This document shows positions 17,772 to 45,358 of a stretch of DNA of 59,931 nucleotides, piece after piece. The stretch lies in contig NZ_BATQ01000047.1 of NCBI RefSeq assembly GCF_000739635.1, positions 1-59,931 of the forward strand, in the 5' to 3' direction. The translations under genes were made by a program, and so were the position numbers. Origin of the DNA: Verrucomicrobium sp. BvORR034 (lineage in GTDB: Bacteria; Verrucomicrobiota; Verrucomicrobiia; Verrucomicrobiales; Verrucomicrobiaceae). The notes under the pieces are model-generated. The model worked only from the letters and a program-made list of their open reading frames with translations. It ran no database searches and was not told the DNA's origin. Numbering within the stretch: the first letter of the stretch is position 1; the number at the start of each line of letters is the position of its first letter.

Positions 17772-18620
17772 ATGCAACCGCACTTTCACGAAGCCAACCG
17801 CCTTTCCTGGAACGCTGCGACGGTGGCGCACAACAGCCACAAGGGCGACCAGACCGCCTGCTTCCGCGATGGAGGCAGTACGTTGTTTCCTGAAGAGAAG
17901 GAGTTGCTTGGAGATTTGACGGGGCTGGAGGTGCTTCATCTGCAGTGCAACTCCGGCCAGGACACCCTCGGCCTGGTGCAACTGGGAGGGACGGTCACAG
18001 GGGTTGACATCTCCGACGAGGCAATTCACTTCGCCACAAAGTTGTCGGCTGACTCCGGGCTGGCGGCCACCTTTCACCGGATGGATGTTTACGACTACTT
18101 CACCTCCACGGTGGAGGCTGGCGTTCAGTATGATGTGATCTTTGCCTCCTACGGCACCATCTGCTGGCTGTCAGACATCGGGGCTTGGGGCCGGGGCATT
18201 CAGGCGCTTCTTCGTCCTGGCGGTCGCTTCGTGTTTGTCGAGTTTCATCCCTTCTCGATGATCTTTGACGACAACTGGAAGTTTCACTATGACTACTTTC
18301 CGAACGGAGCGGTCTCTTCCCCGGGAGTGTCAGACTACGTGGCGCTGTCCGGAAATGGTCTGGCTCTAGGAGAGTATCAAACCGGGGTCGAGAACTTTGT
18401 GAACCCTCACCCGGCTCATGAGTTTGCCTGGGGCTTGGGGGATGTCGTTACCTCCCTGGCACAGGCGGGGCTGACCATTGTCCGGCTGCACGAGTATCCG
18501 TACGCGAACGGCTGCGCGTTGTTTGAGGGCATGTGGGACTCCGGTGGACGGCGGATGGTGCCACCGAAGGGGATGCCCACGATGCCCCTGATGTACAGCA
18601 TCCTGGCGAGGAAGGCGTGA
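17772..18620 (+). CDS. Class I SAM-dependent methyltransferase
   Basis: A 282-residue methyltransferase. Motif I is degenerate: VLHLQCNSGQDTLGL at ~56, followed by TGVDISDEAI for the SAM ribose contact and DVIFASYGTICWL for motif IV. The C-terminal half contains several aromatic residues that could form the acceptor pocket. It follows the LRR kinase by 14 bases and is probably cotranscribed with it. The family contains small-molecule methyltransferases; the acceptor is not predictable here. Confidence 0.82.
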   Translation: MQPHFHEANRLSWNAATVAHNSHKGDQTACFRDGGSTLFPEEKELLGDLTGLEVLHLQCNSGQDTLGLVQLGGTVTGVDISDEAIHFATKLSADSGLAATFHRMDVYDYFTSTVEAGVQYDVIFASYGTICWLSDIGAWGRGIQALLRPGGRFVFVEFHPFSMIFDDNWKFHYDYFPNGAVSSPGVSDYVALSGNGLALGEYQTGVENFVNPHPAHEFAWGLGDVVTSLAQAGLTIVRLHEYPYANGCALFEGMWDSGGRRMVPPKGMPTMPLMYSILARKA

Positions 18621-18686
18621 GCCGGAACTCGCAGGCAGCGCCGCAGAATTCCTGCGGGCTGCCAGCATCATGCGGGAATAGGGCGG

Positions 18687-19493
18687 TCAGCAACTGCCAC
18701 AGCAAGTTGTCTTGGCCGCGGGCGCTTCATCGTACTCGTCGTGCCGCTTCACCCAGTCTCCAAGGTTGAAGTTGGGCCCGTTTTCATTGCGTCCCTTTGG
18801 GGTGAGGTCGAGGAAGTGGTAAGCACCCAGCAACGACTCTGTCTCGCGGGCAAAATCGGAATAGGTGTGGAAAACGTTGCCGTGATCGTCCTTGTAGAAG
18901 ACGCTCACACCGGGCAGTTCGTCGATCTCCAGATCCGTTTCCTCGAAGTTGTACTCCATTTTTCCTCGTGCCTTGTCCTCCTCGGTGGCGGAGACATGGT
19001 AGTCCTGATTGAAATCCGTATCATGTGCGGACACCCAGGGAAACTTCCATCCCATGCGGGCCTTGTATTTATCGAGCTCAGGCAGCGTTGCTCGGGATAC
19101 GGCGATGAGAGTCACGTCATGATGGAAGAGATGGATGTGCGGTCCATCGAAGTGATCCACCATGAAGGAGCAGCCGGGGCACCCTTCCTTCCAGCCGGGG
19201 CCGAACATGAAGTGGTACACAATGAGCTGGCTGTTGCCTGCGAAGAGGTCGGCCAATGATTTTTTTCCTGTTGGGGTGTCGAAGACATAGTTCTTCTCCA
19301 CTTTCACCCATGGGAGTTTGCGGCGTTCCTCCGCCACTTCGTCCTGCACTTTCAAGGCCGCTTTTTCCTTCTTGATCAACTCCTTGCGGGCTTCGATCCA
19401 GGCGGCGCGGGAAACGACTTGATGACTCGATAGCGGCGATTCGGCTGTCGTTGGAGGCTGAGGGGTGGGGCTTTCGATGGTGTTGGTGCTCAT
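18687..19493 (-). CDS. DUF899 family thioredoxin-like protein
   Basis: A 268-residue protein of the DUF899 family, which has a thioredoxin-like fold. The family segments are visible: a basic N-terminal helix (WIEARKELIKKEKA), YVFDTPTGKKSLADLF, HFMFGPGWKEGCPGCSF with a CPGC pair at the thioredoxin position, and DFNQDYHV. The C-terminus ends CCGSC, a cysteine cluster that might bind metal. No signal peptide. It stands alone between convergent and same-strand genes. The function of the family is not established; a redox role is plausible from the Cys pair. Confidence 0.8.
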   Translation of the reverse strand: MSTNTIESPTPQPPTTAESPLSSHQVVSRAAWIEARKELIKKEKAALKVQDEVAEERRKLPWVKVEKNYVFDTPTGKKSLADLFAGNSQLIVYHFMFGPGWKEGCPGCSFMVDHFDGPHIHLFHHDVTLIAVSRATLPELDKYKARMGWKFPWVSAHDTDFNQDYHVSATEEDKARGKMEYNFEETDLEIDELPGVSVFYKDDHGNVFHTYSDFARETESLLGAYHFLDLTPKGRNENGPNFNLGDWVKRHDEYDEAPAAKTTCCGSC

Positions 19494-19624
19494 GGTCTTA
19501 TCTCCTATTCGTGGAGCTGGCAGGAGACTTCCTGGCAGCAGGCTTCAGACCCATGACGAATCGCGCCCAGTCGGCTGGACACCCGTTTCCCATTTATTTA
19601 GCGTTCCATGGTGGAGCGTACCTG

Positions 19625-20395
19625 TCAGGTTGAGATGCGCTTGGGCAGAGAGGCCAGATCGGCGGCCCCAAGGTAGTCACGAAGACGGCTGATGGCTGTC
19701 CTTCCGATTTTTAGGGGATCTGCCAATCCGACAAGAGCCATGCTGGCGGACTCCCGGTTGGTGATTTCCAGATCTTTGATATGAGCCGGGGCCACGATCA
19801 AGGATCGGTCGAGGCGCAGAAAGCCTTCCTGCGGCAGATGGTGCTCCCACTCTCCCAGAGCGCGGTACACGTAGAGTTCCCTGCCATCCACGAGGTGGAG
19901 AATGGAATAGCAAGCGTCTGCTTTGAGACAGACGATCTGGTTGGTGGGGACGACGCGGTAGCTGCGGTGCACCGGGACAATCATGAGGTCCACCATGTAC
20001 AATGGTTGCGGATTGGCGGAGGCATCCGGGATGCGTCCCCGCAACCGGCTGAGGGCGAGGGTAAGGCGGTCTGCAGTGAGGGGTTTCAGCAAATAATCGA
20101 TGGCGCCCACCTCAATGGCCTGGACGGCAAATTCCTCCTGGGAGCTCAGAAAGATGATGCCAGGCAGTTTCTGAAGATGGGGCAGCAGATCAAAGCCGAG
20201 CCCGTCTGGCAACTGGGGGTCGAGGATCAAAAGGTCTGGAGTGAGTGACGTGGACAAGTCCGCCGCCCCCTCAATGGAGCCTGCCTCGCCGATGACCTCC
20301 ACCGCAGCATGAGCGGCGAGGAGTTTCCGCAAATGCGTCCGGGATGCTGGATCGTGGTCCACGATCAGCGTTCGCCAGATTGCTTCACGTTGCAT
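19625..20395 (-). CDS. LytTR-type response regulator
   Basis: A 256-residue two-component regulator: receiver domain at ~5-120 (TLIVDHDP with the acidic pair, LLILDPQLPDGLGF with the phospho-acceptor Asp, IIFLSSQEEFAVQAI, and YLLKPL with the conserved Lys), then a LytTR DNA-binding domain at ~150-245. ATG 20395 is used; the frame is open further upstream but those residues overlap the preceding gene. It begins 29 bases after the cassette protein A gene, so it is probably the last gene of the eight-gene operon. No histidine kinase gene is present. LytTR proteins bind pairs of short direct repeats about 21 bp apart, and such repeats are found upstream of this operon at 29536-29607. Confidence 0.87.
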   Translation of the reverse strand: MQREAIWRTLIVDHDPASRTHLRKLLAAHAAVEVIGEAGSIEGAADLSTSLTPDLLILDPQLPDGLGFDLLPHLQKLPGIIFLSSQEEFAVQAIEVGAIDYLLKPLTADRLTLALSRLRGRIPDASANPQPLYMVDLMIVPVHRSYRVVPTNQIVCLKADACYSILHLVDGRELYVYRALGEWEHHLPQEGFLRLDRSLIVAPAHIKDLEITNRESASMALVGLADPLKIGRTAISRLRDYLGAADLASLPKRIST

Positions 20396-20424
20396 CGGAT
20401 TGGTGGAGAGGGCGGGACGGGCGG

Positions 20425-23400
20425 TCAGTCCTGGAACTGTTCCATGTGCGAAGCGATGACCTTGCCGGTGAAACGGTCGATGGCGATATGCACCCAGAGC
20501 CGGGTTTCTCCCTGGGGAATGAAATTCAGGGCGAGATCCGTGGAGCCGGGGGGCGACATGCGGCCCGTCTGGGAAATGATATCGATGAAATAGTTCCACG
20601 TGCGGGTCTGGCCCGCGGTGCCCAGGGCCCTCACGAGGACTTCCTGCCTTTGCTTGCTGCCGGCCATCTCTGCCGTGAGCCGGTTGACGGGGAGGATGCC
20701 CACGAGATCCGCCAGGCTGCGCAAGGGAGTCAGACCCACCTCGCGACTATAGAGCGTCTGGATGGTGTAGGCATGATCGTTGCTGGTGCGTTCCAACCGG
20801 TGGGGGCGACCGCCGGTGATGTACTCCTGAGCCTGGCCGATCAGGTAGGAGGTGTCCATGAGCTGCGAAAAGATGCTGTCCTTTGGCGACTGGGTGTTGA
20901 TGTTGATGCGCCCCGCCACCACGCCGTCTTGCGGGATCTCATTGATGTCAAAGTACTCCAGCAGAGCGGAGTCTCCGCTGTCTGGGCTGGCAAAGTTGAG
21001 CGTGCGCCAGGGGTCGTCTCGGAAGACGCAGCCCAGTTCTCCGGTGGTGTAGTAGGGGCGGTGCAGGATCACGTTGCGGTCTTCTGACACCTTCGCCTTG
21101 AAGTTTGAGTTGAGGCGGTTTGCCAGGACATCCTGCAAAACCCGCTTCGGGGACGTGGCCGTGCGTCGGCCGACGGCCACATCATCGAGACGTGAGACGC
21201 CATCCTGATCCACCACCAAAGGAGGAATGCCGCCGGGTGTCAGGGGATCGGCCCCTGCGATGGTGGCATAGTCGTTGGCAGCGGTCATGGTGATGACTGC
21301 CGCGGGATCTGTCGCAAGGAGCGGTGCATCCGTCTCCCCCCGGGCCACGCCCCAGCGATTGGTGCGGGGATCGGGTTTGATGAAATAGGGGGTGTGACTG
21401 TCGTTGAAGACGGTGTCATCCGGTGTTTGGGCTGCCTTGTTGGCGGACTGGATGGTGACCGCCACCGAGGCTCCGAGGCCCGCGGTCGGCTCTGTGGAGC
21501 CGTCTCCCACCAGCGCATCGTAGGGCACCCAGACCCCTGCGTCGTTGCAATACTCGAGGACGAGGTTGAAGTGATGAAGCTGGGTCTCCACATTGGGCTT
21601 GGTGGCGCTGGTGGTGATCCAGAAGGCCAGTGCTTTGCCGGTGAAGTAGTCTGGCATGGGAGGGAAGCCGTGCTCACCTTCCGAAGACGTCGAAGGTGTC
21701 CAGTCATTCAGCGGAGGATGCGGGGTCCGATGGGCGTCAGGATTGATGGCGATGATGCGATCTCCGGAGCTATCTGTATCATGCCTGGAGGTCATCTTGG
21801 CATTCGCAAAGCTGCCAACCATCCTGAGTCGAACGGGGGGACGACTCACCGTCTGCAATGGGGCCGCATGCGGATTCACCAGGATGGGAATCGCAAACTG
21901 GTCCACCTGTTGAATGTTGCTCCCCGCGTCGGTCTTGGTGATTTGTCGGAACCGTACTCCATAGAGGTAGGGCAGGTCCTTCACGCCATAGACCTGCCGG
22001 GTGATGCTGGCGGCATTGGTGTAAACAATGGTGGTGGGGAGATTGTTGGGGCGGGCAGCATCAATGATGTTTGCTCCGATCCGGAGAATCTGGAGGTCCT
22101 TGTCGGCATCCCGCTCCGCTGTCAGAGATGCGGTGGTGCCCGTGAAGCTGCGTCCCACCGAGTCGTTGACGATGGCCGCTTTCAGCATCTCAAAAAAGTT
22201 GGGCTCCCGGGTGGCGGCCCTTAACTCGGTGAGAGTCTTGATGTGGGTGTCTTCGTACACCCAGCGTCCCTGGGCATCATTCACAAGACCGAAGTACTGC
22301 TTGATGGCGTCGTCCTTCTGAGTGGAGGTGGACTCGAACCAGGCAATCCGGTTCAGAGCGAAGCGCCGACTGGCAACAGCCGTGCCGGGGAGGAGGGTGT
22401 ACTTTCTTTGGGTGCCATCCACGAGATAATCTGTTGCGGCGGCCTTATGGGTACGCAGGATCGCCGGGGCAAAGACGTTGGCGGCATTCGGGGTGGAAGG
22501 GTCCCAGGAAGGTGCGTCCACTGTGCGGGACCAAGGTGTCATGTAGGACTGGGGGTTGAAGTTGATTTGGTTGTTCTTGCCAAAACGGAGAAGGTCAAGA
22601 CGACTGATGAACTGCGTGTCTCCCTCCGGCGGATCGATGAACCCGTTGTTATTGGAAAGAACCCGGTGGAGGTAGCTTCCATCCCGCGCACTGCGCCTGC
22701 TGCGAACGTCCACGAAACGGTTCTGCGGATCCCGGGCGAGGTCACGGCTGACCGTCATGACCTGGGTGAGATCTGCCCCGGCCAGAGTGGCTTTGAGGGC
22801 GTTGATCTTGAGAATGTCACCTGCCATCGCTGCGGGATAGCCAGCCACGCTGTAGTCGATGAGACAGTCGGTCTGATGAATGGTGAAGGCCGTCCGGCCC
22901 ACCAACGTGGGGCTGGCTGTACGGGTGGGGCCGCTTTCGTCAAAGTAGATCCAGAAGGGCGCGTCGTTCTTGCCCCAAGGTTTGAGTGCCAGAAAGAGAC
23001 TGGGCTCGTTCCATTGCTCTGAATGGATGTAGCGCCCGTCCTTGTTGGGAGTAGAGCTGCGTACATCCGATGTCATGGGGTCGAACAAGGGATGGCTGAA
23101 TTTGGTGATGCTGGGATAGTGGGCGCTCTTGTCGCCCTTCATGGCCGTGGGGATCTTCACGACTGGCAGCATGTTGTCCCGGGTCTTGGGCTTGAAAATG
23201 CGGGTTCCCGCCACCTGGATCACTTCGCTCTGCGAGGGGGCGGTCACCTCTTGGGTCAGGAGCCCGATGGTGTAGTTCAAAGCCGACTGGGCAAAGATCT
23301 CGCTGCGCACACGGGCAGATGCGCTGGCTTCAATGGCGTGATAGTTTTGTGCCCGGGTGAAGAATGCCAGCAAGATGGCAGTAAAGAGGGCCACCAATGC

Positions 23401-23466
23401 GAGGGTCACCACAATGGACGAACCTCGACGTTGAAACTTGAAGTGGAAACCGGGGAGGGATTTCAT
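20425..23466 (-). CDS. Verru_Chthon cassette protein A, giant GspK-like pseudopilin
   Basis: A 1013-residue protein. The N-terminus is basic (FKFQRRG) then a single hydrophobic helix, SSIVVTLALVALFTAILLAF, in prepilin arrangement but without Glu at +5, as in the GspK pseudopilin and PilX-like proteins. The remainder is a large polar, presumably periplasmic domain; near the C-terminus it has an INTQSP and SLADLVGILPVN part resembling the helix-hairpin region of GspK. TIGRFAMs names this family cassette protein A (from memory). GspK is ~330 residues, so this homologue is three times larger. It follows gene C by 12 bases. Proposed role: tip of a pseudopilus; inference. Confidence 0.8.
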   Translation of the reverse strand: MKSLPGFHFKFQRRGSSIVVTLALVALFTAILLAFFTRAQNYHAIEASASARVRSEIFAQSALNYTIGLLTQEVTAPSQSEVIQVAGTRIFKPKTRDNMLPVVKIPTAMKGDKSAHYPSITKFSHPLFDPMTSDVRSSTPNKDGRYIHSEQWNEPSLFLALKPWGKNDAPFWIYFDESGPTRTASPTLVGRTAFTIHQTDCLIDYSVAGYPAAMAGDILKINALKATLAGADLTQVMTVSRDLARDPQNRFVDVRSRRSARDGSYLHRVLSNNNGFIDPPEGDTQFISRLDLLRFGKNNQINFNPQSYMTPWSRTVDAPSWDPSTPNAANVFAPAILRTHKAAATDYLVDGTQRKYTLLPGTAVASRRFALNRIAWFESTSTQKDDAIKQYFGLVNDAQGRWVYEDTHIKTLTELRAATREPNFFEMLKAAIVNDSVGRSFTGTTASLTAERDADKDLQILRIGANIIDAARPNNLPTTIVYTNAASITRQVYGVKDLPYLYGVRFRQITKTDAGSNIQQVDQFAIPILVNPHAAPLQTVSRPPVRLRMVGSFANAKMTSRHDTDSSGDRIIAINPDAHRTPHPPLNDWTPSTSSEGEHGFPPMPDYFTGKALAFWITTSATKPNVETQLHHFNLVLEYCNDAGVWVPYDALVGDGSTEPTAGLGASVAVTIQSANKAAQTPDDTVFNDSHTPYFIKPDPRTNRWGVARGETDAPLLATDPAAVITMTAANDYATIAGADPLTPGGIPPLVVDQDGVSRLDDVAVGRRTATSPKRVLQDVLANRLNSNFKAKVSEDRNVILHRPYYTTGELGCVFRDDPWRTLNFASPDSGDSALLEYFDINEIPQDGVVAGRININTQSPKDSIFSQLMDTSYLIGQAQEYITGGRPHRLERTSNDHAYTIQTLYSREVGLTPLRSLADLVGILPVNRLTAEMAGSKQRQEVLVRALGTAGQTRTWNYFIDIISQTGRMSPPGSTDLALNFIPQGETRLWVHIAIDRFTGKVIASHMEQFQD

Positions 23467-23478
23467 TATCTGGCGGCT

Positions 23479-24354
23479 CTATTGAGGAAGGTAGTAGGTG
23501 CGCTGAAGGACGCGGGTGTGCTGTCGTGCTGGTGGAGGAAGCTCTGCGATGGCTTGCTGCCAGAAGCTTGCGGGTGTGGATTCAAGGGCGGTGCTTGTGC
23601 TCATCGTCACCAGTTTCATTTGAAGAGGGCCGAAACCTTCCGCTTCCGCGATGTCCCTCTGGGCGGGGCCGTCCAGAACGGCAATGCTGGCGATGAAGGC
23701 CCGCACTTCTTTCAGATCCACTTTGATGAATCCATTGGGATCGGGCTGCTGATCGGCAGTGTAGGGGGGCAATCCACGGGGATCCCGTGTGATCGTGCCG
23801 TCACGACGCATCCAGACAAGCTCAAAACGGAAGGCATGCTCTCCCGTCACATCAGAGTCCCCGAGCGCACGGGTGCTGAGACATTCACTGAGAAGATAGT
23901 CTTCGGCCTGGATGTCGTTGTCTGTGGGCCAGAGCAGCGGGGCGCTGCCTCGCACCAGCATGGGCAGATCGCACTTCAGCAGGGGGTGTGGCCGTGTCTC
24001 CATGGTGTAGGAAACAATCGTCATTCGTGCGCGGGGATGCTGGCTGCTGTTTCGGGAGATGGCGACGAACTTGAGTGTGTCATTGGTGGTGGCATCGCCC
24101 GGCTTGAACAACACGCCAGTGCCGCCCCGGGTCACCAAGGTACTGATGTCTTCAGTGAGGTTGTCCAGCGCCATCCGGGCCGAGGTGATGGCATCCATCT
24201 GGCGGAGTTGATGGGAGGTTGCCGTCTGGGCCGTGGTGGTGGCTTGAACCAGCAAGAACGTGAGCACCAAAAAGACCACCATCACCACGAGCAGTTCAAC
24301 CAGGGTGAAACCCTGCCGCAGATGATGGAGGTGTCTATCCGTGTGAGTTTTCAT
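23479..24354 (-). CDS. Verru_Chthon cassette protein C, GspJ-like pseudopilin
   Basis: A 291-residue pseudopilin. Prepilin signal RQGFTLVELLVVMVVFLVL near residue 13, with Gly at -1, Phe at +1 and Glu at +5, so it should be cut and methylated by a prepilin peptidase encoded elsewhere. The globular part has the length and beta-rich look of GspJ. Its ATG overlaps the stop of gene B by four bases (ATGA), a sign of coupled translation. It is the third of four cassette proteins. Confidence 0.8.
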   Translation of the reverse strand: MKTHTDRHLHHLRQGFTLVELLVVMVVFLVLTFLLVQATTTAQTATSHQLRQMDAITSARMALDNLTEDISTLVTRGGTGVLFKPGDATTNDTLKFVAISRNSSQHPRARMTIVSYTMETRPHPLLKCDLPMLVRGSAPLLWPTDNDIQAEDYLLSECLSTRALGDSDVTGEHAFRFELVWMRRDGTITRDPRGLPPYTADQQPDPNGFIKVDLKEVRAFIASIAVLDGPAQRDIAEAEGFGPLQMKLVTMSTSTALESTPASFWQQAIAELPPPARQHTRVLQRTYYLPQ

Positions 24355-24887
24355 TGGGGGCGGAAAATCAGAAGGGCCCGGACGCTGCCTTGATGGTTGT
24401 GCCAGGCGGAGTTTTCCCAGATGGAAGTAGCAGGCCAGGCAATGCGGATCACGGCTCTTCCGCTCGTCCAGTCATCTGGGGGAGGGGTGATTTCAATGCG
24501 ATAGGCAAAATCAGCCTTGTCTGCCGTAACATGGGAACTTCCAGAGGCGTCCATGAGACCTTCCGCAGGTGGATGCGAAAGGTCGCCGGGAGTCCAGGTG
24601 ATCTCACCGATATCCTGAAGGCCCAGCACCTGGTAGCTCCCACCATCCTGCCGGGGGGCTGCTTGAATGCCGGTCGCGATTTGCTTGAGCAGGCGGCTGG
24701 CTTCAGCCTGTCGCGAAGCATTGGCCGTCAAACTCATGCCTGCGGGAAGCAGCCCCATGAGAAGGCTCAGGCTCAGTGCAGAGATGCCCAGAGCGACAGT
24801 GGTCTCCACCAAGCTGAAGCCCCGCGTCCAGCGGGAGCGGACGGTGGATGCCTCGTGGGAGGAAGCCGCGGTGGATCGGATTCGCAT
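24351..24887 (-). CDS. Verru_Chthon cassette protein B, GspI-like pseudopilin
   Basis: A 178-residue pseudopilin. Prepilin motif TRGFSLVETTVALGIS at ~22, with Glu at +5, and a VALGISALSLSLLMGLLPAG helix typical of the short GspI/cassette B group. I start at ATG 24887, one base after the stop of gene D; the longer frame to 24926 overlaps that gene. The end overlaps gene C by ATGA. Confidence 0.78.
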   Translation of the reverse strand: MRIRSTAASSHEASTVRSRWTRGFSLVETTVALGISALSLSLLMGLLPAGMSLTANASRQAEASRLLKQIATGIQAAPRQDGGSYQVLGLQDIGEITWTPGDLSHPPAEGLMDASGSSHVTADKADFAYRIEITPPPDDWTSGRAVIRIAWPATSIWENSAWHNHQGSVRALLIFRPQ

Positions 24888-24888
24888 G

Positions 24889-25617
24889 CTAAGGACGGAG
24901 TATTTGGATATGGCCGCTGGCGCCATTCAGCACGAGAGCCGCCTGATCGGGGTTGTTGGAGTCAACATTTCCACCGCGGGTCGGGAGCAAAACCAGGTCA
25001 ATAAACCGGTCGTAGGGCGTGTTCAGATCGATATCCGGTGTGTAAGTGTTCTTGCCGTCGGTGGTGGTGAAGCTGGAATAGATCATGGCCTTGCCCTGGG
25101 GGCTGAACATGATGGTGAAGAGCCACGCGGGTTCTGGTACCAGGTTGCCAATGGAGACATTGAGCCCCGGGGCTGATGCGAGGGATTTGGAGTCCGCCCC
25201 GGCAAAGCGGAGCTTTTTTAACTCGGCATCCAACTTGTCCCACTCTGCCAGCTTTACTCCCGTCCAGCGGTGAATGTTGCTCAGCACCTGAATGTCGTTC
25301 AGTTGCTTGGTGGATGGGCTGATGCTGGGCCGGGTGACCAGACTGCTGAAGGCAAAGGCGGTCAGCGCATCTTCACCATCCAGGGTTTTGGTGTTTTGGA
25401 AGGCAACGAAGGTGGGTTGGGAGGAGGTGAGTGCGTGATTCCGGGAGAGTTCGAGGAGATTCCAGGTCTCTGTGACCGCCTTGCTCATGCCCCGGTTGCC
25501 CAAAAGAGAGGGCAAGGCGGGCACGGTCGCAAAGATGAGCGCGGCAGTGATGCCGATAACGACCAGAAGCTCCACCAGGGTGAAGGCTCTGGCTCGATGG
25601 TGCGGAAACCTGGTCAT
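24889..25617 (-). CDS. Verru_Chthon cassette protein D, GspH-like pseudopilin
   Basis: A 242-residue pseudopilin with RARAFTLVELLVVIGIT at the N-terminus: Glu at +5 is present but the residue before the cut is Ala, not Gly, which prepilin peptidases accept less well. The C-terminal domain has the GspH/FimT look and length. Its ATG overlaps the stop of the upstream PEP-CTERM gene by four bases, tying the secreted protein directly to the pseudopilin cassette. First of the four pseudopilin genes. Confidence 0.8.
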   Translation of the reverse strand: MTRFPHHRARAFTLVELLVVIGITAALIFATVPALPSLLGNRGMSKAVTETWNLLELSRNHALTSSQPTFVAFQNTKTLDGEDALTAFAFSSLVTRPSISPSTKQLNDIQVLSNIHRWTGVKLAEWDKLDAELKKLRFAGADSKSLASAPGLNVSIGNLVPEPAWLFTIMFSPQGKAMIYSSFTTTDGKNTYTPDIDLNTPYDRFIDLVLLPTRGGNVDSNNPDQAALVLNGASGHIQILRP

Positions 25618-26357
25618 GGCTGGCTGGGCGAATGGGGTTTACGGTGGCGACGCAGGAGCGATGCAGAGAGACCGAGCATGGCCAGGAGGGACAGTGATGG
25701 CTCTGGCACCGCCGATCCAAACGACACCTGCATGTCGTAGGTGTCCCAGTTGGTGCCGGACCGCAGGAAGGTGAGGGTAAAGTCTGAGATGCTCTGCCCC
25801 GCGAATTCCAGAGCATTCAGGTCCCACGTGTAGGTGTAGAGCACCGGCGCGAGACCGCTGGTGTACAGCCCTTCATAGCGGGCGATGTTGTCGCCTGTGG
25901 TGGCGATGGAGGTGTCGGTGGAAAGGACCGCCTGTGCGATGGAATAGGTGGTGGAGCCGATGGCCAGATTGAGCGTGGTGGGCGGTGCTATGGCCACCAT
26001 CTGAATGGTCAACAGGTCTGGCACAGGTGCCGTGATGCCGGAGGCAGCGATGGTGAAGGTGGTGTTTCGCCCTGGCTTCAGGAACTCCGGTACGTAGCTC
26101 GCATTGGCGTTGACATTGGAACTGAGGAGGAAGGTGCCTGCTGTGGCTGAAGGCGTCTCACTTCTGGCATTGCGCACGCCAGCAATGGCCGCGCCGCCGG
26201 GACCTGGATTGCTCCAGAACTCCCGGTTGCCGCCCCATTCCGCGACCGCTTCATGTCCGGAGGGTAGCGGGATGGCGGTGGTCGCGGCCGCCAAGGGCAG
26301 GGAGGCTAGAAGGGAGAGACTGAGGATGAGTGTTTTCAACTGAGCGGGGGGCTTCAT
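25614..26357 (-). CDS. PEP-CTERM sorting domain protein
   Basis: A 247-residue exported protein. The N-terminal signal peptide is MKPPAQLKTLILSLSLL followed by ASLPLAAA. The C-terminus has the PEP-CTERM tripartite tail: VPEPS, a hydrophobic segment (LSLLAMLGLSASLL) and a basic end RRHRK. Exosortase is expected to cut at PEP and attach the protein at the cell surface; no exosortase gene is in the window. The middle is beta-rich with no family I know. ATG 26357 is used because it starts the signal peptide. Coupled by a four-base overlap to cassette gene D. Confidence 0.82.
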   Translation of the reverse strand: MKPPAQLKTLILSLSLLASLPLAAATTAIPLPSGHEAVAEWGGNREFWSNPGPGGAAIAGVRNARSETPSATAGTFLLSSNVNANASYVPEFLKPGRNTTFTIAASGITAPVPDLLTIQMVAIAPPTTLNLAIGSTTYSIAQAVLSTDTSIATTGDNIARYEGLYTSGLAPVLYTYTWDLNALEFAGQSISDFTLTFLRSGTNWDTYDMQVSFGSAVPEPSLSLLAMLGLSASLLRRHRKPHSPSQP

Positions 26358-26392
26358 GAGAGGGCACACACGGGGATGGGTGACGGTGTTTT

Positions 26393-28330
26393 TTACAGGA
26401 GTGATGGTCTGGAGCTGCCTTCACGACGACGACGGCGCAGGAGGATTGTGGCCAGCGAAGTGGCGAGCAGAAGGAGGCGCCCTGGCTCTGGCACGGCGGC
26501 GTAGGAGAGGACGAGATCGTTGCCGATGGCGGAGATGGACCAGCCTTCCAGATTGATGCTCACATTGTCTGGATCGAAGCCATTGAGGCCGGCCGTGGTG
26601 GTGAGAAAGGTCCAGTCATAGGTGGAAGCGAAGTCGAAAGTGTCAGGGAAATGCAACACCAGGTTCCAAGGGTTCGAGGAGGAACCCGATTCCAGGCTGA
26701 AGGAGCCGGTGATCTCGATGCGTGGCGCCGCAAGGGAGTCCGCTCCGACGGTGAACTCCAGGGTACTGCCGCCTTCCACCAACAGGTTGCCGGCGAAATG
26801 GATGTCGATGGTCTCGGGCAGGGGATGGGTCTGGGTGGTGGGATAGGTGAGGGTGACGACGTTGCCCAGTTTCAGCGTGGTGACTCCCGGAGCGACCAGC
26901 AATCTGCTGCCGCTGGCAACATTCACCGTGCCCCAGCCGAGAGCCCGGTCGCTTCCGGCGATGAGCGTGCCGTTGTCGATGAAAGTTCCTCCGGAGTAGG
27001 TGCTGGCACCCGTCAGGTGGGTTGTGCCCCCTGATCGGACATACACGGCGGTCTTGCCGGGTTCTTTGAACTCCGGGTCATAGAAGTCCCGATACGGCCG
27101 GACTGGGGCCTTCTCCGTGATGTTGGCGGAGAAGGTGTAGTTGGATTCGTTGTGATTGAAGATGACCTCGCCACTGCCATAGCCAGTGGTCACCTCTGGG
27201 GCGAGGAAAGCACCTGCTGTGCCTCCTTCACCGATCTGGATCACTCCCTTGCTGTCGTAGGAATAGGGATCGCCGAAGTAAATCTGGCCCTTCTCGGCAC
27301 CCAGAGTGACTGCGCCGCCCTGGGTGGAGAAGGAGGCTCCGTCGGCGATGATGAGGGTCAGGTCTCCGGTCACGCCCAGCATGGTGGTGCCCTTGATGAG
27401 GGTGTCTCCATTGACGAGGTAACTGGTGACATTGAGTTCTGTGCCCGCGCCCGCGATCCTGATGACCCCGGTGCCGCCGCCCGCATTGAACTCGCTCTCG
27501 TAGTAACCGCCGGAGAGGTTGCTGGTCACCGTCACCTTCGCGCCCTGCTCGATGGTGAGAGATCCTTCATTATTGCCGCTGGACATGTACAGAGTCTCCA
27601 GGAGCGCAGTTGTGCCAGCTCCAGTGATAAGGACTTGTCCCTGACCTACTGTTTCGGATGAGTAGATCGAGTTCATGTAGCCGATGGCCAGGCTGCCTGA
27701 GATGGTGGCACCACCCCGCACCTCCAGAGTGCCAGTGCCTCCGATGCTGCCGACGGTGAACGTGGCTTGCACGTCCGAGAGACCTTCGATGATGGCCTTC
27801 CCCTTGGTATCGAGGATTCCCACTTGAAAGTTGAAGAGTCGGGACTGCTCCGTGGCAGTACCGAAGCGGGGATCATTGATGTAGCTCCGGTAGTAGCCCC
27901 TGAGGGTAGCGCCGTTGATCCTCACGAGACCTGCTGCACCCGATGCTGCGGAGCCGACGACAAGGTCGGCAGATCCACCTGCGCCACTCACGCCACCATA
28001 GGCATAGGAGCCGCGCAGATTGAGGCTGACGTCGTTGATCTCCAGGGTACTGGAAACAACCTTAATGGCAGTGGCCTCCACCGTCACACCTCCTGCCAGG
28101 GTGACCACGCTGCCATCATCGATCTGTGCCGTGCTGTTGGGGTCGGCTGCGGCGGCGTAGGCAGCAGGCAACGCGCCGTTGCTCCAGTTGCCCGGTGTGA
28201 ACCAGTTGCCAGAGGTGCCACCGATCCATCGGTTGGCGGTCTGGGCCTGGGCGGTGGCCGGCAGCAGAGACGTGAACAGAAGTGTGGCGGCCAGCGCCGC
28301 CACACCCGGGAGGGTTTTAAGGGATGACAT
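26393..28330 (-). CDS. PEP-CTERM beta-strand repeat surface protein
   Basis: A 645-residue secreted protein. Signal peptide with cleavage near ATAQAQT (residue ~30). The body is rich in Gly, Thr, Ser and Asn, with autotransporter-associated beta-strand repeats: TTHLTGASTYSGGTFIDNG is the clearest copy (~435), and earlier turns (VTLAGGVTVEATAIK, ATFTVGSIGGTGTLEV) indicate a right-handed beta-helix. The C-terminal tail is VPEPG, a hydrophobic stretch and RRRRRE, a PEP-CTERM signal. It has no autotransporter beta-barrel, so it needs another exit route. It lies 35 bases upstream of the second PEP-CTERM gene and 10 bases after the Tat-signal gene. Probably a surface adhesin or fibre; inference. 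Confidence 0.85.
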   Translation of the reverse strand: MSSLKTLPGVAALAATLLFTSLLPATAQAQTANRWIGGTSGNWFTPGNWSNGALPAAYAAAADPNSTAQIDDGSVVTLAGGVTVEATAIKVVSSTLEINDVSLNLRGSYAYGGVSGAGGSADLVVGSAASGAAGLVRINGATLRGYYRSYINDPRFGTATEQSRLFNFQVGILDTKGKAIIEGLSDVQATFTVGSIGGTGTLEVRGGATISGSLAIGYMNSIYSSETVGQGQVLITGAGTTALLETLYMSSGNNEGSLTIEQGAKVTVTSNLSGGYYESEFNAGGGTGVIRIAGAGTELNVTSYLVNGDTLIKGTTMLGVTGDLTLIIADGASFSTQGGAVTLGAEKGQIYFGDPYSYDSKGVIQIGEGGTAGAFLAPEVTTGYGSGEVIFNHNESNYTFSANITEKAPVRPYRDFYDPEFKEPGKTAVYVRSGGTTHLTGASTYSGGTFIDNGTLIAGSDRALGWGTVNVASGSRLLVAPGVTTLKLGNVVTLTYPTTQTHPLPETIDIHFAGNLLVEGGSTLEFTVGADSLAAPRIEITGSFSLESGSSSNPWNLVLHFPDTFDFASTYDWTFLTTTAGLNGFDPDNVSINLEGWSISAIGNDLVLSYAAVPEPGRLLLLATSLATILLRRRRREGSSRPSLL

Positions 28331-28340
28331 CAGCGCTCCA

Positions 28341-29222
28341 CTAGAGGGCTTCCACGTCTGCCTGGATGGTGTCGACAGAGAAGGCGTGACCCAACTGCGG
28401 ATCTCCGGCCCCGCTGACGAAGTTGATGGTGAACGGCGAGGAGCTGAGGCTTAAACCCGTCCAGACATACTGGAAGGTGAAGTAGAAGGTCCCCGTGCCA
28501 CCAGGATAGGTGGTGTCTCCGTCGGAGGGATCCCAGCTGCCCTGGGCGAACGTGTTGGGGGAACTGATGGTGGCGGAGTTCGTATAGCGTGCCACGGAAG
28601 TGGTGGCGATGGGACTGCCGCCTTGCACGATGCTGGCCGTGAAGGGCGCGTCTCCATAGCCGCTGGCACCGCCGAGCCCGACGAGGGTGCTGCCAGTGAG
28701 CCGGAGATAGTTCGAGGTTTTTACCTGAAGAACCACCTTCTGCACAGCGTACCCGGCAGAGATGTCCAGGGAGAAGTCAAACTGCTGGGAAATGTCATCG
28801 TCATTGGTGAGACGACCGGGGCGGGCATAGCTGGGAGCTCCGCTGGAGGTTGCGGGTGAGGGATAGATGGCGGTCTCACTCTGGGCAAGTTCCGCACCCA
28901 CCAGGCCGGAGAGATCCCCGCTGTCGGGTTCCAGGCCGGTGAAGTAGCCCAGGCCGGTTGCATCGGGGTCAAACCACTCATAGCGGGCAAGACCATCGCT
29001 CCCTGCAATGGTCTGGATGCCCGTGTAGGCGGATGGGGCGGAGAGGAGGCTGACGCCGCCAGCTTTGCGAGCGGCACTGATGTGTTCCAGGGCACCCGGA
29101 GGGATGACGATCTTGGGGCCACCAGCCGCCTGGAGCTTGGTCAGCATGGAACCTGCTGCGAACGCGGACGTGGCAGCGAGGAAGGAACGGCGCGAGGTTT
29201 TGCGTGGGTCTTGGGGGGACAT
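28341..29222 (-). CDS. Tat-exported protein of the cassette operon
   Basis: A 293-residue protein with a twin-arginine signal: TSRRSFLAATSAFAAGSML, ending near LQAAGG. The rest is beta-rich with many Gly, Ser and Thr and no cysteine motif, and looks like a structural or binding domain (DFSLDISAGYAVQKVVLQV). No PEP-CTERM tail is present. ATG 29222 puts the RR pair at residues ~11-12; the frame is open upstream to 29303 but that adds nothing signal-like. First gene of the eight-gene operon. It could be the folded cargo or partner of the beta-helix protein; function unknown. Confidence 0.72.
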   Translation of the reverse strand: MSPQDPRKTSRRSFLAATSAFAAGSMLTKLQAAGGPKIVIPPGALEHISAARKAGGVSLLSAPSAYTGIQTIAGSDGLARYEWFDPDATGLGYFTGLEPDSGDLSGLVGAELAQSETAIYPSPATSSGAPSYARPGRLTNDDDISQQFDFSLDISAGYAVQKVVLQVKTSNYLRLTGSTLVGLGGASGYGDAPFTASIVQGGSPIATTSVARYTNSATISSPNTFAQGSWDPSDGDTTYPGGTGTFYFTFQYVWTGLSLSSSPFTINFVSGAGDPQLGHAFSVDTIQADVEAL

Positions 29223-29311
29223 GTTAGTTTTGTAGGTTTGCGTTTTCAGTTGGGTTTGGGTCACTGAAAAAGGGGCTTGGCCGCTCTGGGCGATGTCCGG
29301 CAAAAGGGTCT

Positions 29312-29339
29312 CTTATATGATATTGAGACGCAGTAGCAA
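29312..29339 (-). promoter_or_regulatory. Possible sigma-70 promoter of the cassette operon
   Basis: On the minus strand TTGCTA (29339-29334) and TATAAG (29317-29312) are separated by 16 bases. Transcription would begin near 29305, leaving an untranslated leader of ~80 bases before ATG 29222. The sequence fit is fair only. Confidence 0.35.
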
Positions 29340-29535
29340 TGTGTGATGGCTAGAATGCGAAGCGGATCATGGCAATTGCTTTTATTTGTCCCTTGTTGCC
29401 GGGGTTTCAGGAAACATCAGAAAGCCTGGTCTTCCAGGGCAGGGAAGGCCACTGACAGATGATGGAGGGGAGTTCTTTCATATCTGGCTGCACGGAACAA
29501 ACGGTGCTTCTACCAGATTGAAAACTGCCTATTTT

Positions 29536-29607
29536 TGAATCCGCCAGCCAACACGATGAATCCGCCAGATCGTGCGGAAAAGTTGCAGCTACCCGCGATG
29601 AATTCGC
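29536..29607. promoter_or_regulatory. Phased direct repeats, candidate LytTR operator
   Basis: TGAATCCGCCAG occurs at 29536-29547 and again at 29557-29568, a period of exactly 21 bp (two helical turns). A third copy of the 9-bp core with one mismatch, TGAATTCGC, is at 29599-29607, 42 bp further on. LytTR regulators bind 9-bp direct repeats with 12-13 bp between them, so the spacing is right. It lies ~200 bp upstream of the proposed promoter, inside the 615-bp stretch 29223-29837 which holds no gene that I can support. Confidence 0.5.
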
Positions 29608-29837
29608 ACGCCAGTTGCCCGGTGTTGCCGGGATGATTCGTGATTGCTTTGTATCGAAAAACTAATTATGGGGGCGCGGTGGTCTTTCGTGGAAAGGTAG
29701 TTTCATGAACTTGCATGGCGGTTCCGCGTTCCCGGCATGTGGCATGCCGTCCGTCACCGCTTCAGGGCATTCGGGATGTTCCGAAGTGGGGTTATCTTGC
29801 CTGTGGATTGGAAACATTTCTCTGCTTATGCTCCGGC

Positions 29838-30248
29838 ATGAGCAATTCCGGTGAGTTCTTCATCCAGCTGGAAGGTGGCGACGATTGGTCGGTTGAGTTC
29901 CCGGAAGACAATATCACGATGTCATTGGATCTTGAGCCGGTTGGGCCTACGCTCTACCGGATTGTGACTGTGCCTTTGATGATCGAATCTCCCCGCTTTG
30001 GAGATGTTATAGAAGCAGAGCAGAAAGGAGACAGGGAGTTGCGCTTTTTGCGCGTCGTCGAGCAGGGGGACTGGCGGATCTTCGACTTTCTTATCTCTGA
30101 GGAAATGGCCGGGTCAGAAAGGGTCAAAAGAGTTTGTGAAAAGGTGATTCTGCTTGGCGGGCACTGCGAGCGGGTGTTTGGAGGAATCCTGCTGCTTTGC
30201 TTGCCTCCGGCTTCCGACTATGATCCGACTGCTGATCTAATGACGTAG
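29838..30248 (+). CDS. Hypothetical protein, DUF4265-like layout
   Basis: A 136-residue acidic protein without signal peptide or membrane segment. It has a LYRIVTVPLMIESPRFGDVIEAE segment which resembles the central part of DUF4265 proteins (RL.N.PF....GD.V), followed by a beta strand-helix pattern; the match is weak and from memory. Start at ATG 29838, 41 codons after the first in-frame ATG, because the upstream residues look non-coding. The AT content is higher than in the neighbours. It reads away from the cassette operon. Confidence 0.55.
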   Translation: MSNSGEFFIQLEGGDDWSVEFPEDNITMSLDLEPVGPTLYRIVTVPLMIESPRFGDVIEAEQKGDRELRFLRVVEQGDWRIFDFLISEEMAGSERVKRVCEKVILLGGHCERVFGGILLLCLPPASDYDPTADLMT

Positions 30249-30403
30249 CTTGACCGGATGCCACAGTTGTTTCGAACTGCAGCCACGCTACCCCGGGTTC
30301 GGGCATACGTCTCAAACTGTCACTCCTTGGACCAAGCCTCCAATTGGCTCCAGCATGGCCATGATGTCGTCGCCAAGATTCGCCTCACCGAGTCTGGGTA
30401 TAG

Positions 30404-30586
30404 AATCAGGACAGGGCCATCTGGACAGTGGTCGCCCCAAGCGCTGCCGCAGCTTCTTCCATCCTGGCGACCAACCGCAGGCAGGCCCAGGTGGAAAGTG
30501 CCCTCGCGTTCTTGCGCGACCAATTCAAATGGATTGAGGCGGGCAAACCGGCGGATACCCCGCATCTGAACGACTCCTGCTGCTGA
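30404..30586 (+). pseudogene. Remnant of an unknown gene (3' end)
   Basis: Between 30249 and 30718 no intact gene is present. On the plus strand 60 codons end at TGA 30584-30586, with strongly coding-like composition (AIWTVVAPSAAAASSIL, then ALAFLRDQFKWIEAGKP). The frame is closed upstream by TAG 30401-30403 and has no start codon. A different frame from ATG 30258 covers the preceding ~50 codons, so a frameshift near 30400 could have split one gene. Family not recognised. Confidence 0.4.
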
Positions 30587-30718
30587 AGGGTTCGATCCAT
30601 CAACGAGGAGCCCGGCGCTGACCTGAGACATCACAGCCAGTGAATGCAATCTTGCATCAACTGCGACGACGCGCGCCGAAGGATGGCAATGAGAATCCAT
30701 TTTGCCAGAGGCTAAAAA

Positions 30719-30793
30719 TGGTGCGCGATACAGGGTTCGAACCTGTGACCCCCTCCGTGTCAGGGAGGTGCTCTACCACTGAGCTAACCGCGC
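30719..30793 (-). tRNA. tRNA-Val (anticodon GAC)
   Basis: Full cloverleaf on the minus strand: acceptor GCGCGGT pairs with ATCGCGC, D arm TAGCTCAGTGGTAGAGC, anticodon stem CCTCC/GGAGG around loop CTGACAC (anticodon GAC), T arm with GGTTCGAACC, discriminator A at 30722 and an encoded CCA at 30721-30719. It lies downstream of ispH on the same strand. Confidence 0.96.
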
Positions 30794-30892
30794 AAACGGT
30801 GCTTCCTCTTTTTGGAAGCGGCCTGCTTGATACAATGGAGCCGGCCGTTGCGCAAATGTTTTTTTGTCTTCTGCCGCAGACGGCAAAGGGTG

Positions 30893-32185
30893 CTATTCCG
30901 TGCGTTGTTGCGCCTCTGCCGCCCGGGCGACTTCCTGCTTCACCAAATCGGGCGCAACGCCCCGAAGCTCAAACACCCGAAGGATTGTGTCCTCGATCAA
31001 ATTGTTGGGACAAGAGGCACCGGCGGTGACTCCCACCACGATGGGTTCCTCGCTGGCCAGCTTCGCGGAGTAGCTGGTCTTTTCCGCCTTAAGGTGAAGA
31101 TCAAAGTGAACGATCTCGGTGAAGCTCTTCAGCAGCTCGGCGGTACGGATGAAGAAGGTGGGCAGCTCTTTTTCTCCGATTTCCACGAGGTGAGTCGTGT
31201 TGGAGCTGTTGTAGCCGCCGACGACCAGGAGGATGTCGAGCGGTTTGCGGAGCATCTCGAACAGTGAGTCTTGACGCTCCTGGGTGGCTCCGCAGATGGT
31301 GTCAAAGACCTGGAAGTTCTGTTGGGCGGGTTCTGGACCATCCCGATCGATCACGGCCTGTTGCACCCGGCGCTGAAGTTCCTCGGTTTCCGACTTCAGC
31401 ATGGTCGTCTGGTTGGCCACGCCGACCCGCTTGAGATGCTGGTCAGGATCGAAGCCGGGCGACATCGCCCCTTCGAAGCGCTTCAGGAACTCCTCGCGAT
31501 TGCCGCCATGGCGGATGTAGTCGCAGACGTAGTCCACATCGCCGAGAGTGAGCACGACCACAAAATTTCCCTTCCCGTCATCCCCCTGGGCCCGCGAAGA
31601 GGTGGCCCGGGTCTCCTCGTGGGAGGCCTTGCCGTGGATGATGGAGGTGAAGCCTTGCTTGGCATAGCCTCGCACGCGCTTCCAGACGCTCATGACGTCG
31701 CCGCAGGTGGTGTCCACCACCAGGCAGCCGCGTTCGCTGATGATGTTCATCAGCTGGGTCTCCGCGCCGAAGGCGGGCACGATCACGACATCCTCCGGCC
31801 CGAGCTTGGAAACGGCCTCGAGATGCTGGCTGATGGGAATGCTGACGATCCCCATTTCCGTGAGCTGGCGGTTGACCTCGGGATTGTGAATGATCTCACC
31901 CAAAAGGAACACCCGCCGGTCGGCGAACACCCGCCGGGCTGCATAGGCGAGGTCGATGGCCCGTTCCACCCCGTAGCAAAAGCCGAAGTCCCGCGCCAGG
32001 CGGATGGTGGTGTTGCCCACCGTCATGAACCCGCCAGCCTTCCGCAGGTTTTCCACCAAGACACTGCGGTAGTGTGTTTCCACCTCCGCTTGGACCCGCT
32101 CCATCACCTCCGGGGTGCGGACGTTGACGCGGCGGGATTTGGCGGCGGGAGCGGGGGCAGACACAGGGGTGGAGGCAGCGGACAT
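30893..32185 (-). CDS. ispH: 4-hydroxy-3-methylbut-2-enyl diphosphate reductase
   Basis: Last enzyme of the MEP isoprenoid pathway; a 4Fe-4S protein that turns HMBPP into IPP and DMAPP. The three cluster cysteines are in GFCYGVERA (Cys70), DTTCGDVMSVW (Cys161) and ASCPNNLIED (near residue 393). The protein is 430 residues, the long form found in cyanobacteria, chloroplasts and several other phyla, with an extra N-terminal segment (Ala/Pro-rich residues 1-20) and internal additions compared with E. coli IspH (316). Cytoplasmic. Followed downstream by tRNA-Val, preceded by an L,D-transpeptidase gene read the same way. Confidence 0.95.
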   Translation of the reverse strand: MSAASTPVSAPAPAAKSRRVNVRTPEVMERVQAEVETHYRSVLVENLRKAGGFMTVGNTTIRLARDFGFCYGVERAIDLAYAARRVFADRRVFLLGEIIHNPEVNRQLTEMGIVSIPISQHLEAVSKLGPEDVVIVPAFGAETQLMNIISERGCLVVDTTCGDVMSVWKRVRGYAKQGFTSIIHGKASHEETRATSSRAQGDDGKGNFVVVLTLGDVDYVCDYIRHGGNREEFLKRFEGAMSPGFDPDQHLKRVGVANQTTMLKSETEELQRRVQQAVIDRDGPEPAQQNFQVFDTICGATQERQDSLFEMLRKPLDILLVVGGYNSSNTTHLVEIGEKELPTFFIRTAELLKSFTEIVHFDLHLKAEKTSYSAKLASEEPIVVGVTAGASCPNNLIEDTILRVFELRGVAPDLVKQEVARAAEAQQRTE

Positions 32186-39591: not shown

Positions 39592-39685
39592 AGGGGAGCG
39601 GAGGATGCGTGCGGTGCTTGCGGCTGACTCGAACGGCTTCGTAGCACGTTATTTCTCAAGATTTTGTCAAAAAAACCTGAGAGTG

Positions 39686-39715
39686 TTGACACGAAAACTC
39701 GCGGCGGGGTAATCT
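39686..39715 (+). promoter_or_regulatory. Sigma-70 promoter of the pilus/secretion operon
   Basis: TTGACA at 39686-39691 and TAATCT at 39710-39715 with an 18-base spacer. The start of transcription would be about 39722, giving a leader of ~47 bases before ATG 39769. This is the best promoter match noticed in the window. Confidence 0.6.
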
Positions 39716-39768
39716 GGCGCGCCTTAGGGCCAATTTTCGAATTATTCACTGCCACCGCCTCGTCATAC

Positions 39769-44704: not shown

Positions 44705-45358
44705 ATGAAAATCCGCACCGTTTCCCGTCACCTGAACCGCCGTTTGGCAGGTGGCTTCACGCTTATTGAACTTTTGGTGGTGATTGCCATCATTGCGCTG
44801 CTGGCAGCGCTGACGCTGGGCGGCTTCCAGTACGCCCAGCAGGCGGCAGGCCGCAACAAAACGACCGCCTCTCTCGCAGCAATCAAATCCGGCCTTGAGC
44901 AGTATAAGGAGAAGTTCGGTGAGTATCCCGCTGTACCTGCTGCACAGGCTTCGGATACTGGTACCTACGGTGGCTTGACGGTGAAGCGGGCCGCCGCTGC
45001 CATGCTTTATCAGGCCCTCAGTGGCGACGGCAACACCTACATCCAGCTGAGTGGAGCAGCGGGGGTGGAGTCCGACGGTGAAGTGTCGGTCGAAGAAGTG
45101 CCGAATTCGATCAACAGCAACCTGCCTCCCCAGATGATCTTTTCTGGCGGAGTGGCGAGGGGAACCCCGGGCACGCGCTATTTGATTGATGGTTTTGGCC
45201 GGCCTTTCCAGTACACCAAGGGTGGAGAAGCCACTGCGGTTAACCCCACCTATGACATCTGGTCCTATGGACACTCCGATAAAGCCGGCACCCCCAATGA
45301 CGATCTGAATACCAAGAAGAGCGCCACGGAAACGGCTACTTGGATCAAGAACTGGTAG
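44705..45358 (+). CDS. GspG-like major pseudopilin
   Basis: A 217-residue prepilin: GGFTLIELLVVIAIIALLAAL at ~17, with Gly at -1, Phe +1 and Glu +5, cut by a prepilin peptidase encoded elsewhere. The helix is followed by a GspG-type domain with YPAVPAAQASD and the end DIWSYGHSD, which resembles the calcium-binding region of GspG. About 70 residues longer than usual GspG. It follows the platform gene by 99 bases and is followed by a terminator. Confidence 0.92.
   Translation: MKIRTVSRHLNRRLAGGFTLIELLVVIAIIALLAALTLGGFQYAQQAAGRNKTTASLAAIKSGLEQYKEKFGEYPAVPAAQASDTGTYGGLTVKRAAAAMLYQALSGDGNTYIQLSGAAGVESDGEVSVEEVPNSINSNLPPQMIFSGGVARGTPGTRYLIDGFGRPFQYTKGGEATAVNPTYDIWSYGHSDKAGTPNDDLNTKKSATETATWIKNW

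Follow-up and report, generated by a model that had tools for sequence, protein, structure and literature searches.

The stretch analyzed here (59,931 nucleotides of Verrucomicrobium sp. BvORR034, contig NZ_BATQ01000047.1, positions 1 to 59,931; hereafter the window) contains at 19625-29222 a run of eight genes, all on the minus strand, in which genes for PEP-CTERM surface proteins are followed by a cassette of four genes, D, B, C, and A, for proteins resembling the minor pseudopilins GspH, GspI, GspJ, and GspK, and by a gene for a LytTR response regulator. These coordinates agree with those of an earlier sequence-only reading, as does the close spacing that it described (gaps of at most 35 bases): in gene order, the junctions measure 10, 23, -4, 1, -4, 12, and 29 bases. 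That reading counted three ATGA overlaps; two are present, at 25614-25617 (the gene of a 251-residue protein and D) and at 24351-24354 (B and C), and the third is a gap of one base between D and B. The eight genes may be read as one transcript. Scans for promoters and terminators give fewer sites than in shuffled sequence, and an Rfam scan of 18000-31000 gives one tRNA (30722-30793) and nothing else.

The first gene of the run (28341-29222) encodes a 293-residue protein with a Tat-like signal (SRRSFL) and no assigned function. Its description as a surface protein is unproven because NCBIfam returns nothing for it and Pfam no more than a Tat-type signal under threshold (TAT_signal, 12.6 bits; cut-off 22.7); of the three surface-protein genes initially proposed, the other two score above the PEP-CTERM cut-off. 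One of them (26393-28330) encodes a 645-residue β-strand (autotransporter-type) repeat protein with a PEP-CTERM tail (TIGR02601, 24.6 bits, cut-off 19.85; TIGR02595, 22.8 bits, cut-off 16), which also matches Pfam PATR at 23.8 bits, under the cut-off of 27. Repeat and PEP-CTERM-type matches are the only ones that the NCBIfam and Pfam scans return for this protein, with none to an autotransporter barrel such as the C-terminal β barrel of a type V secretion system, in agreement with the initial view that it has no barrel of its own. The other (25614-26369) has a GTG start and encodes the 251-residue PEP-CTERM protein that overlaps D (TIGR02595, 17.7 bits; cut-off 16). The cassette itself consists of D (24889-25617; GspH/FimU-like), B (24351-24887; GspI/PilV-like), C (23479-24354; GspJ-like), and A (20425-23466; 1013 residues, a GspK-like candidate tip pseudopilin). 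Prepilin-type N termini are confirmed in the four proteins, with Glu5 present in D, B, and C and absent from A. The run ends with the LytTR response regulator (19625-20395, start ATG at 20395; 256 residues; Pfam Response_reg 63.2 bits, LytTR 48.1 bits).

Relationship to minor pseudopilins

The same four kinds of genes make up the Verru_Chthon cassette A-D (TIGR02600, TIGR02598, TIGR02599, and TIGR02596), and we find homology for all four. Membership in these families, as first claimed, does not follow: by the curated NCBIfam cut-offs the window quartet falls outside them, with D at 21.5 bits (cut-off 70), B at 40.3 bits (TIGR02598; cut-off 51.4), C at 24.9 bits (cut-off 256.5), and no TIGR02600 match for A in the NCBIfam scan. 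Held-out profiles, built from named loci with the window left out, recognize window D, B, C, and A with E values of 1.4e-17, 1.2e-16, 2.4e-12, and 4.2e-8, respectively (Z set to 8000), and each protein scores best under its own letter. A tree of 95 C proteins places the window with C22 and C18 in a sub-branch (support 0.975) within a clade of 21 of the 95 proteins (support 1.0), where the gene order is D-B-C-A in 18 cases, B-C-A in one, and not resolved by script in two. Summed over stretches, the scores of the A proteins from two other members of this clade, C119 and C145, attain the TIGR02600 cut-off; those of the window sub-branch do not. The A protein of C119 has a 98% match to Verrucomicrobium sp. 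BvORR106. Judged by titles and the openings of abstracts, a literature search returned no paper on the Verru_Chthon cassette.

The minor pseudopilins of the type II secretion system (T2SS), GspH, GspI, GspJ, and GspK (XcpUVWX), are four prepilin-type proteins, of which the first three have Glu5 and the larger GspK does not. The cassette families show the same pattern. By regular expression, Glu5 occurs in A in none of 28 rows from the BvORR034 genome (representing 26 genes) and in one of 84 others, and it is kept in B (23/23 in this genome, 65/69 elsewhere), C (23/23 and 67/72), and D (24/25 and 65/67; the BvORR034 rows of D take in two pilins outside cassettes). In a profile-profile matrix against sets of Gsp proteins, each cassette family finds its best match in the proposed partner: D in GspH (98.1% over 159 columns; GspG 96.8% over 30, GspJ 96.6% over 39), B in GspI (96.5% over 123 columns, narrowly above GspJ with 96.0% over 64), C in GspJ (98.0% over 69 columns; GspI 95.5% over 42), and A in GspK (96.5% over 71 N-terminal columns; the next, GspG, 37.4%). 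Match lengths matter in this matrix because all sets share the prepilin helix. The sets comprise 3 GspH, 4 GspI, 16 GspJ, 22 GspK, and 3 GspG sequences, those of GspH and GspI being thin; the H, I, and J labels at C24 and C116 were assigned by gene position, and the GspK set consists of 20 loci kept by eye from their N termini out of 30 gathered, plus two others, three sequences having wrong N-terminal extensions. When the family profiles are compared with solved structures, D finds the globular domain of FimU (E value 0.027 for the FimU chain, at profile positions 44-123) among some chance rows, C and D match mostly N-terminal pilin helices, and neither A (E up to 10) nor B (E up to 1) finds any match.

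Complete A proteins have about 850-1700 residues versus 315 and 327 for the two GspK proteins first compared, and the length of A is approximately threefold that of the GspK proteins in the comparison. A motif pair found in A proteins of at least 800 residues (98, 85, and 83 of 102) was defined post hoc and is descriptive. The confident parts of a predicted model of window A, a helix at 12-75 and strands within 956-1011, are compatible with a pilin, and the protein possibly folds as a pilin core (residues about 12-75, 157-198, and 956-1011) with a long insertion between these segments. VIA-align of this low-confidence model ranks XcpX (GspK) first (Z 6.5, root mean square deviation 4.1, 100 aligned residues spanning model positions 52-1013), followed by a minor pilin (Z 6.2) and then an unrelated enzyme (Z 5.2); a Z below 8 may mean merely a common arrangement.

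On the basis of these sequence comparisons, the homology of D-B-C-A to H-I-J-K holds in the main, and the correspondence that was first drawn is upheld by the diagonal of the profile matrix and the Glu5 pattern; the low-confidence partial model of A, with XcpX in first place, is in keeping with it. The argument from gene order does not survive as proof. The window has the same order as H-I-J-K, but cassette orders vary between loci, where A-B-C-D, B-C-D-A, and B-C-A-D are also common and the H-I-J-K-like order is one of several.

These comparisons also bear on the main rival interpretation, that the cassettes are interchangeable tips of type IV pili. According to this alternative, A or the β-strand-repeat neighbor serves as a tip adhesin in the manner of PilY1, there is no export for release, and the PEP-CTERM genes merely encode co-regulated surface proteins. 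It is in keeping with PilX_N being the sole recurrent Pfam match of A (5/26, best E 0.00023, below cut-off). Against it, the N-terminal profile of A fits GspK, although the sets compared did not include PilX; GspK carries a large insertion, which its pilus counterpart PilX of Pseudomonas lacks (PMC7248040, in excerpt); and the window neighbors include no PilY1 family match up to an E value of 1, PilY1 being encoded beside the minor pilins in a type IVa pilus priming complex. We consider this alternative unlikely, though it is the one to be taken most seriously.

Cassette copies and motors

In the BvORR034 genome (8.6 Mb) we count 26 A genes; the complete quartet is present at 23 loci, the window included. 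TIGR02600 finds 21 A proteins above its cut-off and three more below it, and iterated profiles add those of the window and C18. The quartets are arranged as A-B-C-D (10), D-B-C-A (8), B-C-D-A (3), and B-C-A-D (1), with one scattered. Among loci from named records found in a search with A proteins (80 of 271 relatives kept, six of the 80 from BvORR106, the nearest named record), 67/80 have three or all four kinds of cassette genes; with the 23 quartets of BvORR034, this makes the cassette more than a chance grouping. Across a phylum sample in which at most two candidates were scored per genome, an A match exceeds the cut-off in 7/240 genomes and reaches E ≤0.001 in 135/240, mostly with the N terminus alone. 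Gene calls at cassette and motor loci are longest open reading frame choices, some of them false. One of the 80 record titles names Betaproteobacteria and another Akkermansia muciniphila (assignments as titled).

No motor gene lies within the run, and a candidate motor is encoded 10 kb away on the opposite strand. It consists of two PilB/GspE-type assembly ATPases (39664-41424 and 41530-43200, plus strand; T2SSE 453 and 460 bits), a GspF/PilC platform protein (43325-44605, plus strand; T2SSF 223.9 bits), and a GspG-like major pseudopilin (44705-45358, plus strand; T2SSG 29.7 bits, N_methyl 29.4 bits), beside which lies a gene for a second GspG-like protein without a prepilin motif (45467-46114). 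The window has no secretin match, and no match to H, I, J, K, or a secretin is found among the ten genes tested around the GspG-like gene; these E, E, F, and G genes are not co-encoded with the quartet in the manner of a T2SS. The cassettes would provide tips without motors; the window motor offers a shaft, and the genes tested around it include none for a tip.

The separation extends to the whole genome, in which we find 14 ATPase and 15 secretin places. None of these is closer than 10 kb to a quartet (the genome-wide searches covered ATPases and secretins, not GspF), the window ATPase being 14.6 kb from D. This absence of an ATPase or secretin near the cassettes, together with the many cassette copies per genome, distinguishes them from a T2SS. 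T2SS-like loci occur at two places, C24 and C116, where GspK exceeds its Pfam cut-off and prepilin genes adjoin an ATPase; further ATPase places are C187, C189, C81, C72, and C155. At E ≤1e-28 there are twelve secretin places, and full GspE/PilB-type loci number five (the window, C24, C116, C189, and C187) in addition to a split one, C81. At C189 (L071:8165-14434, L117:3415-5100), a GspE-type ATPase and seven genes whose products show a prepilin-like motif form a pilin-rich cluster of their own.

Two features of the ATPases speak for the pilus-tip alternative. For each of the two in the window, the NCBIfam PilB model gives a slightly higher score than the GspE model (589.8 versus 573.3 bits and 598.2 versus 596.8 bits), all four values being below cut-off, and shorter ATPases at C72 and C155 are PilT-like by size alone. 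Pilus tips also have a close precedent in Myxococcus xanthus, in which three clusters of minor pilins and PilY1 (FimU-PilV-PilW-PilX-PilY1) act on one pilus machine, each set with a large partner (PMC7541494, in excerpt). The Myxococcus arrangement differs from the present one in its number of sets (3, with PilY1, versus 23 here with no PilY1 match) and in that the neighbor here is a PEP-CTERM β-strand-repeat protein.

Surface-protein genes beside the cassettes

Two genes of the run encode the PEP-CTERM tail and the BvORR034 genome has three exosortases, so that both elements of PEP-CTERM/exosortase sorting are present. Scoring of 150 of 180 candidates gives 63 PEP-CTERM places in this genome, close to the 65 reported for V. 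spinosum (PMC1569441, in excerpt). Of the 63, 8 are at most 1 kb from a cassette, against an expectation of 0.37, and 16 are at most 10 kb away, against 3.25. Ranked by distance from the cassette, genes with β-strand repeats or a PEP-CTERM tail account for 16/48 genes at rank 1, 4/41 at rank 2 (20/89 for the two ranks together), and 0/164 beyond (p 1.8e-10), and such a gene occurs within two genes of the cassette in 17/25 stretches. This count omits L071, and it treats the overlapping L055 and L056 as having no repeat gene because theirs sits between their A genes. L055/L056 (C38:103768-125450) has three A genes in a row, a single B-C-D set, and a 1746-residue β-strand-repeat gene between two of the A genes. 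In G000, C145 and C82 have open frames of 7811 and 7040 residues with β-strand repeats (among the best 150 of 532 candidates).

The profile used to flag repeats was built from 27 examples in the cassette stretches of BvORR034, and PEP-CTERM tails were flagged by a regular expression. At 74 loci outside BvORR034 and BvORR106, flagged genes make up 13/133 at rank 1, 8/121 at rank 2, 6/111 at the next rank, and 10/320 thereafter, the first two ranks (21/254) exceeding ranks of 4 and above (10/320; p 0.006). NCBIfam annotates 10 PEP-CTERM and 9 β-strand-repeat proteins among the 144 nearest genes of the 80-locus set; among 106 distal genes both families fall outside the 25 commonest, i.e., at most 2 (near genes were scanned with NCBIfam and Pfam, distal genes with NCBIfam, and long neighbors over their last 381 residues). 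The link between cassettes and surface-protein genes is real, strongest in the genome of the window, modest elsewhere, and not universal; the survey suggested by the sequence-only reading, which asked whether the cassette always lies beside such genes, thus bears out the association and not its constancy.

The neighborhoods also permit a reading based on carbohydrates, in which the cassettes encode tips, induced by sugars, for the binding or uptake of polysaccharide and the surface proteins are bystanders in one genus. LacI-family regulators are the commonest annotated nearest neighbors (12/144 in NCBIfam and Pfam, versus at most 2/106 distal genes), and genes for a sulfatase and a glucuronyl-esterase-like protein are found close to two BvORR034 cassettes. 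Sulfatases and polysaccharide enzymes are found in the distal set too, and the window run itself has no match to such a family in NCBIfam or Pfam, and we regard this reading as improbable. LacI-type neighbors, read from their N termini, occur for example at L141, L144, L147, L151, L155, L182, and L194.

A slightly more improbable explanation still is that the cassette and the PEP-CTERM genes are neighbors solely because they share a multiplying gene block, and that PEP-CTERM proteins have some unrelated way through the outer membrane. Genomes of the genus g12 (2.2-3.5 Mb; perhaps Akkermansia) would fit this scenario, with an exosortase in 14/20 and an A match above cut-off in 0/20 (weak in 10/20), as would the 23 predicted PEP-CTERM proteins of A. 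muciniphila (PMC4960237, in excerpt) and the distance of most BvORR034 PEP-CTERM places from cassettes. A common block accords less well with adjacency within two genes in 13 other organisms (by titles; 19 loci) with differing gene orders. Absence of the cassette from Akkermansia is not absolute either: L193, a metagenome-assembled genome titled Akkermansia muciniphila, holds an A-B-C-D cassette, although its title or binning may be wrong.

A putative set of free-standing tips

We propose that D, B, C, and A assemble into a free-standing minor-pseudopilin tip (D as GspH, B as GspI, C as GspJ, and A as GspK), on top of which the enlarged A would sit. Having no motor of its own, this tip may cap a pseudopilus or pilus of a shared GspE/PilB-GspF-GspG machine, one of the few in the cell, for which the genes 10 kb away in the window are one candidate. 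The many cassettes of a genome would be interchangeable tips, each under a regulator of its own, here the LytTR response regulator. The partners engaged by the tip of this operon would be the PEP-CTERM proteins whose genes lie upstream, chiefly the 645-residue β-strand-repeat protein as its client; the tip would help to carry or seat them across the outer membrane, and an exosortase would remove their C-terminal anchor. That the quartets are stand-alone minor-pseudopilin tips on shared secretion or pilus motors, some with a dedicated surface-protein client, is a proposal to which we give about even weight for and against. The 23 cassette copies, many of them adjoining genes for large surface proteins, suggest, short of proof, that each tip is for its own surface protein. 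In the most extended form of this proposal, a single engine with many tips, a few motors would serve some two dozen exchangeable GspHIJK-type tips, each with its own regulator and client, and these would constitute the outer-membrane route of PEP-CTERM β-strand-repeat proteins; we put this forward as a doubtful, though possible, extension.

Individual elements of the proposed tip mechanism have parallels in excerpts of published work. The XcpUVWX tip of Pseudomonas is described as recognizing substrates (PMC6211770), the Myxococcus clusters provide for several tip sets on one machine, and MYXO-CTERM and GlyGly-CTERM proteins pass the outer membrane via the T2SS (PMC11980579). Transit of PEP-CTERM proteins to or through the outer membrane is proposed in PMC1569441; in the excerpt of that paper the means is left open, no pseudopilin machine is named for it, and the word "cassette" is absent.

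Several results weigh against the proposed tip and client. Profile matches to the Gsp sets span most of D and B but only the N-terminal part of A and C, and pairs off the diagonal of the matrix also score high (C with GspI 95.5% and GspG 95.3%, D with GspG 96.8% and GspJ 96.6%, B with GspJ 96.0%). GspK is singled out for A by the 22-sequence set alone, an earlier two-sequence GspK profile having placed GspG (37.4%) over GspK (30.1%). By curated models, window A scores 14.9 bits against GspK NF037980 (cut-off 130) and has no Pfam T2SSK or T2SSK_1st match, and none of the 26 A proteins of the genome matches the T2SSK Pfam models at E 0.1. Most of the model of A has low reliability (pLDDT 43.6), and Foldseek finds no match for it at E ≤0.001; for the model of C (pLDDT 61.1), VIA-align returns no pilin row. 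The fold comparison envisaged in the sequence-only reading, run on A and C, thus ranks GspK first for A on a low-confidence model and yields no pilin match for C.

The linkage has counter-evidence too. In BvORR034, 47/63 PEP-CTERM places are more than 10 kb from any cassette; at the 74 other loci just 19 have a repeat or PEP-CTERM neighbor within two genes, and the rate at ranks of 8 and above (3/31) is no lower than at rank 1 (13/133). Training of the repeat profile on cassette stretches favors finds there, and LacI-type regulators are as frequent as surface-protein genes among nearest neighbors. Phylum-wide co-occurrence of an exosortase with a weak A match is slight (109/135 versus 73/105, p 0.049, kinship ignored); it was dropped as support for the linkage, being weak and confounded by kinship.

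Given the proposed tip function, the Verru_Chthon A-D proteins, which are named families with no stated function, would gain a likely identity. If the tips are exchangeable, substrate choice in the T2SS could be studied tip by tip in one cell, and the pairing of GspHIJK-type tips with PEP-CTERM genes allows a direct test of outer-membrane passage.

Regulatory genes of other kinds accompany further cassettes. In BvORR034, a histidine kinase and a regulator are encoded near the cassettes at C23 and C189, an extracytoplasmic function (ECF) sigma factor gene adjoins the cassette at C171, and another lies 5 kb from that at C134. At L048, L050, L051, and L057, a kinase with a response regulator, or an ECF sigma factor, is encoded beside the cassette or within about 5 kb of it.

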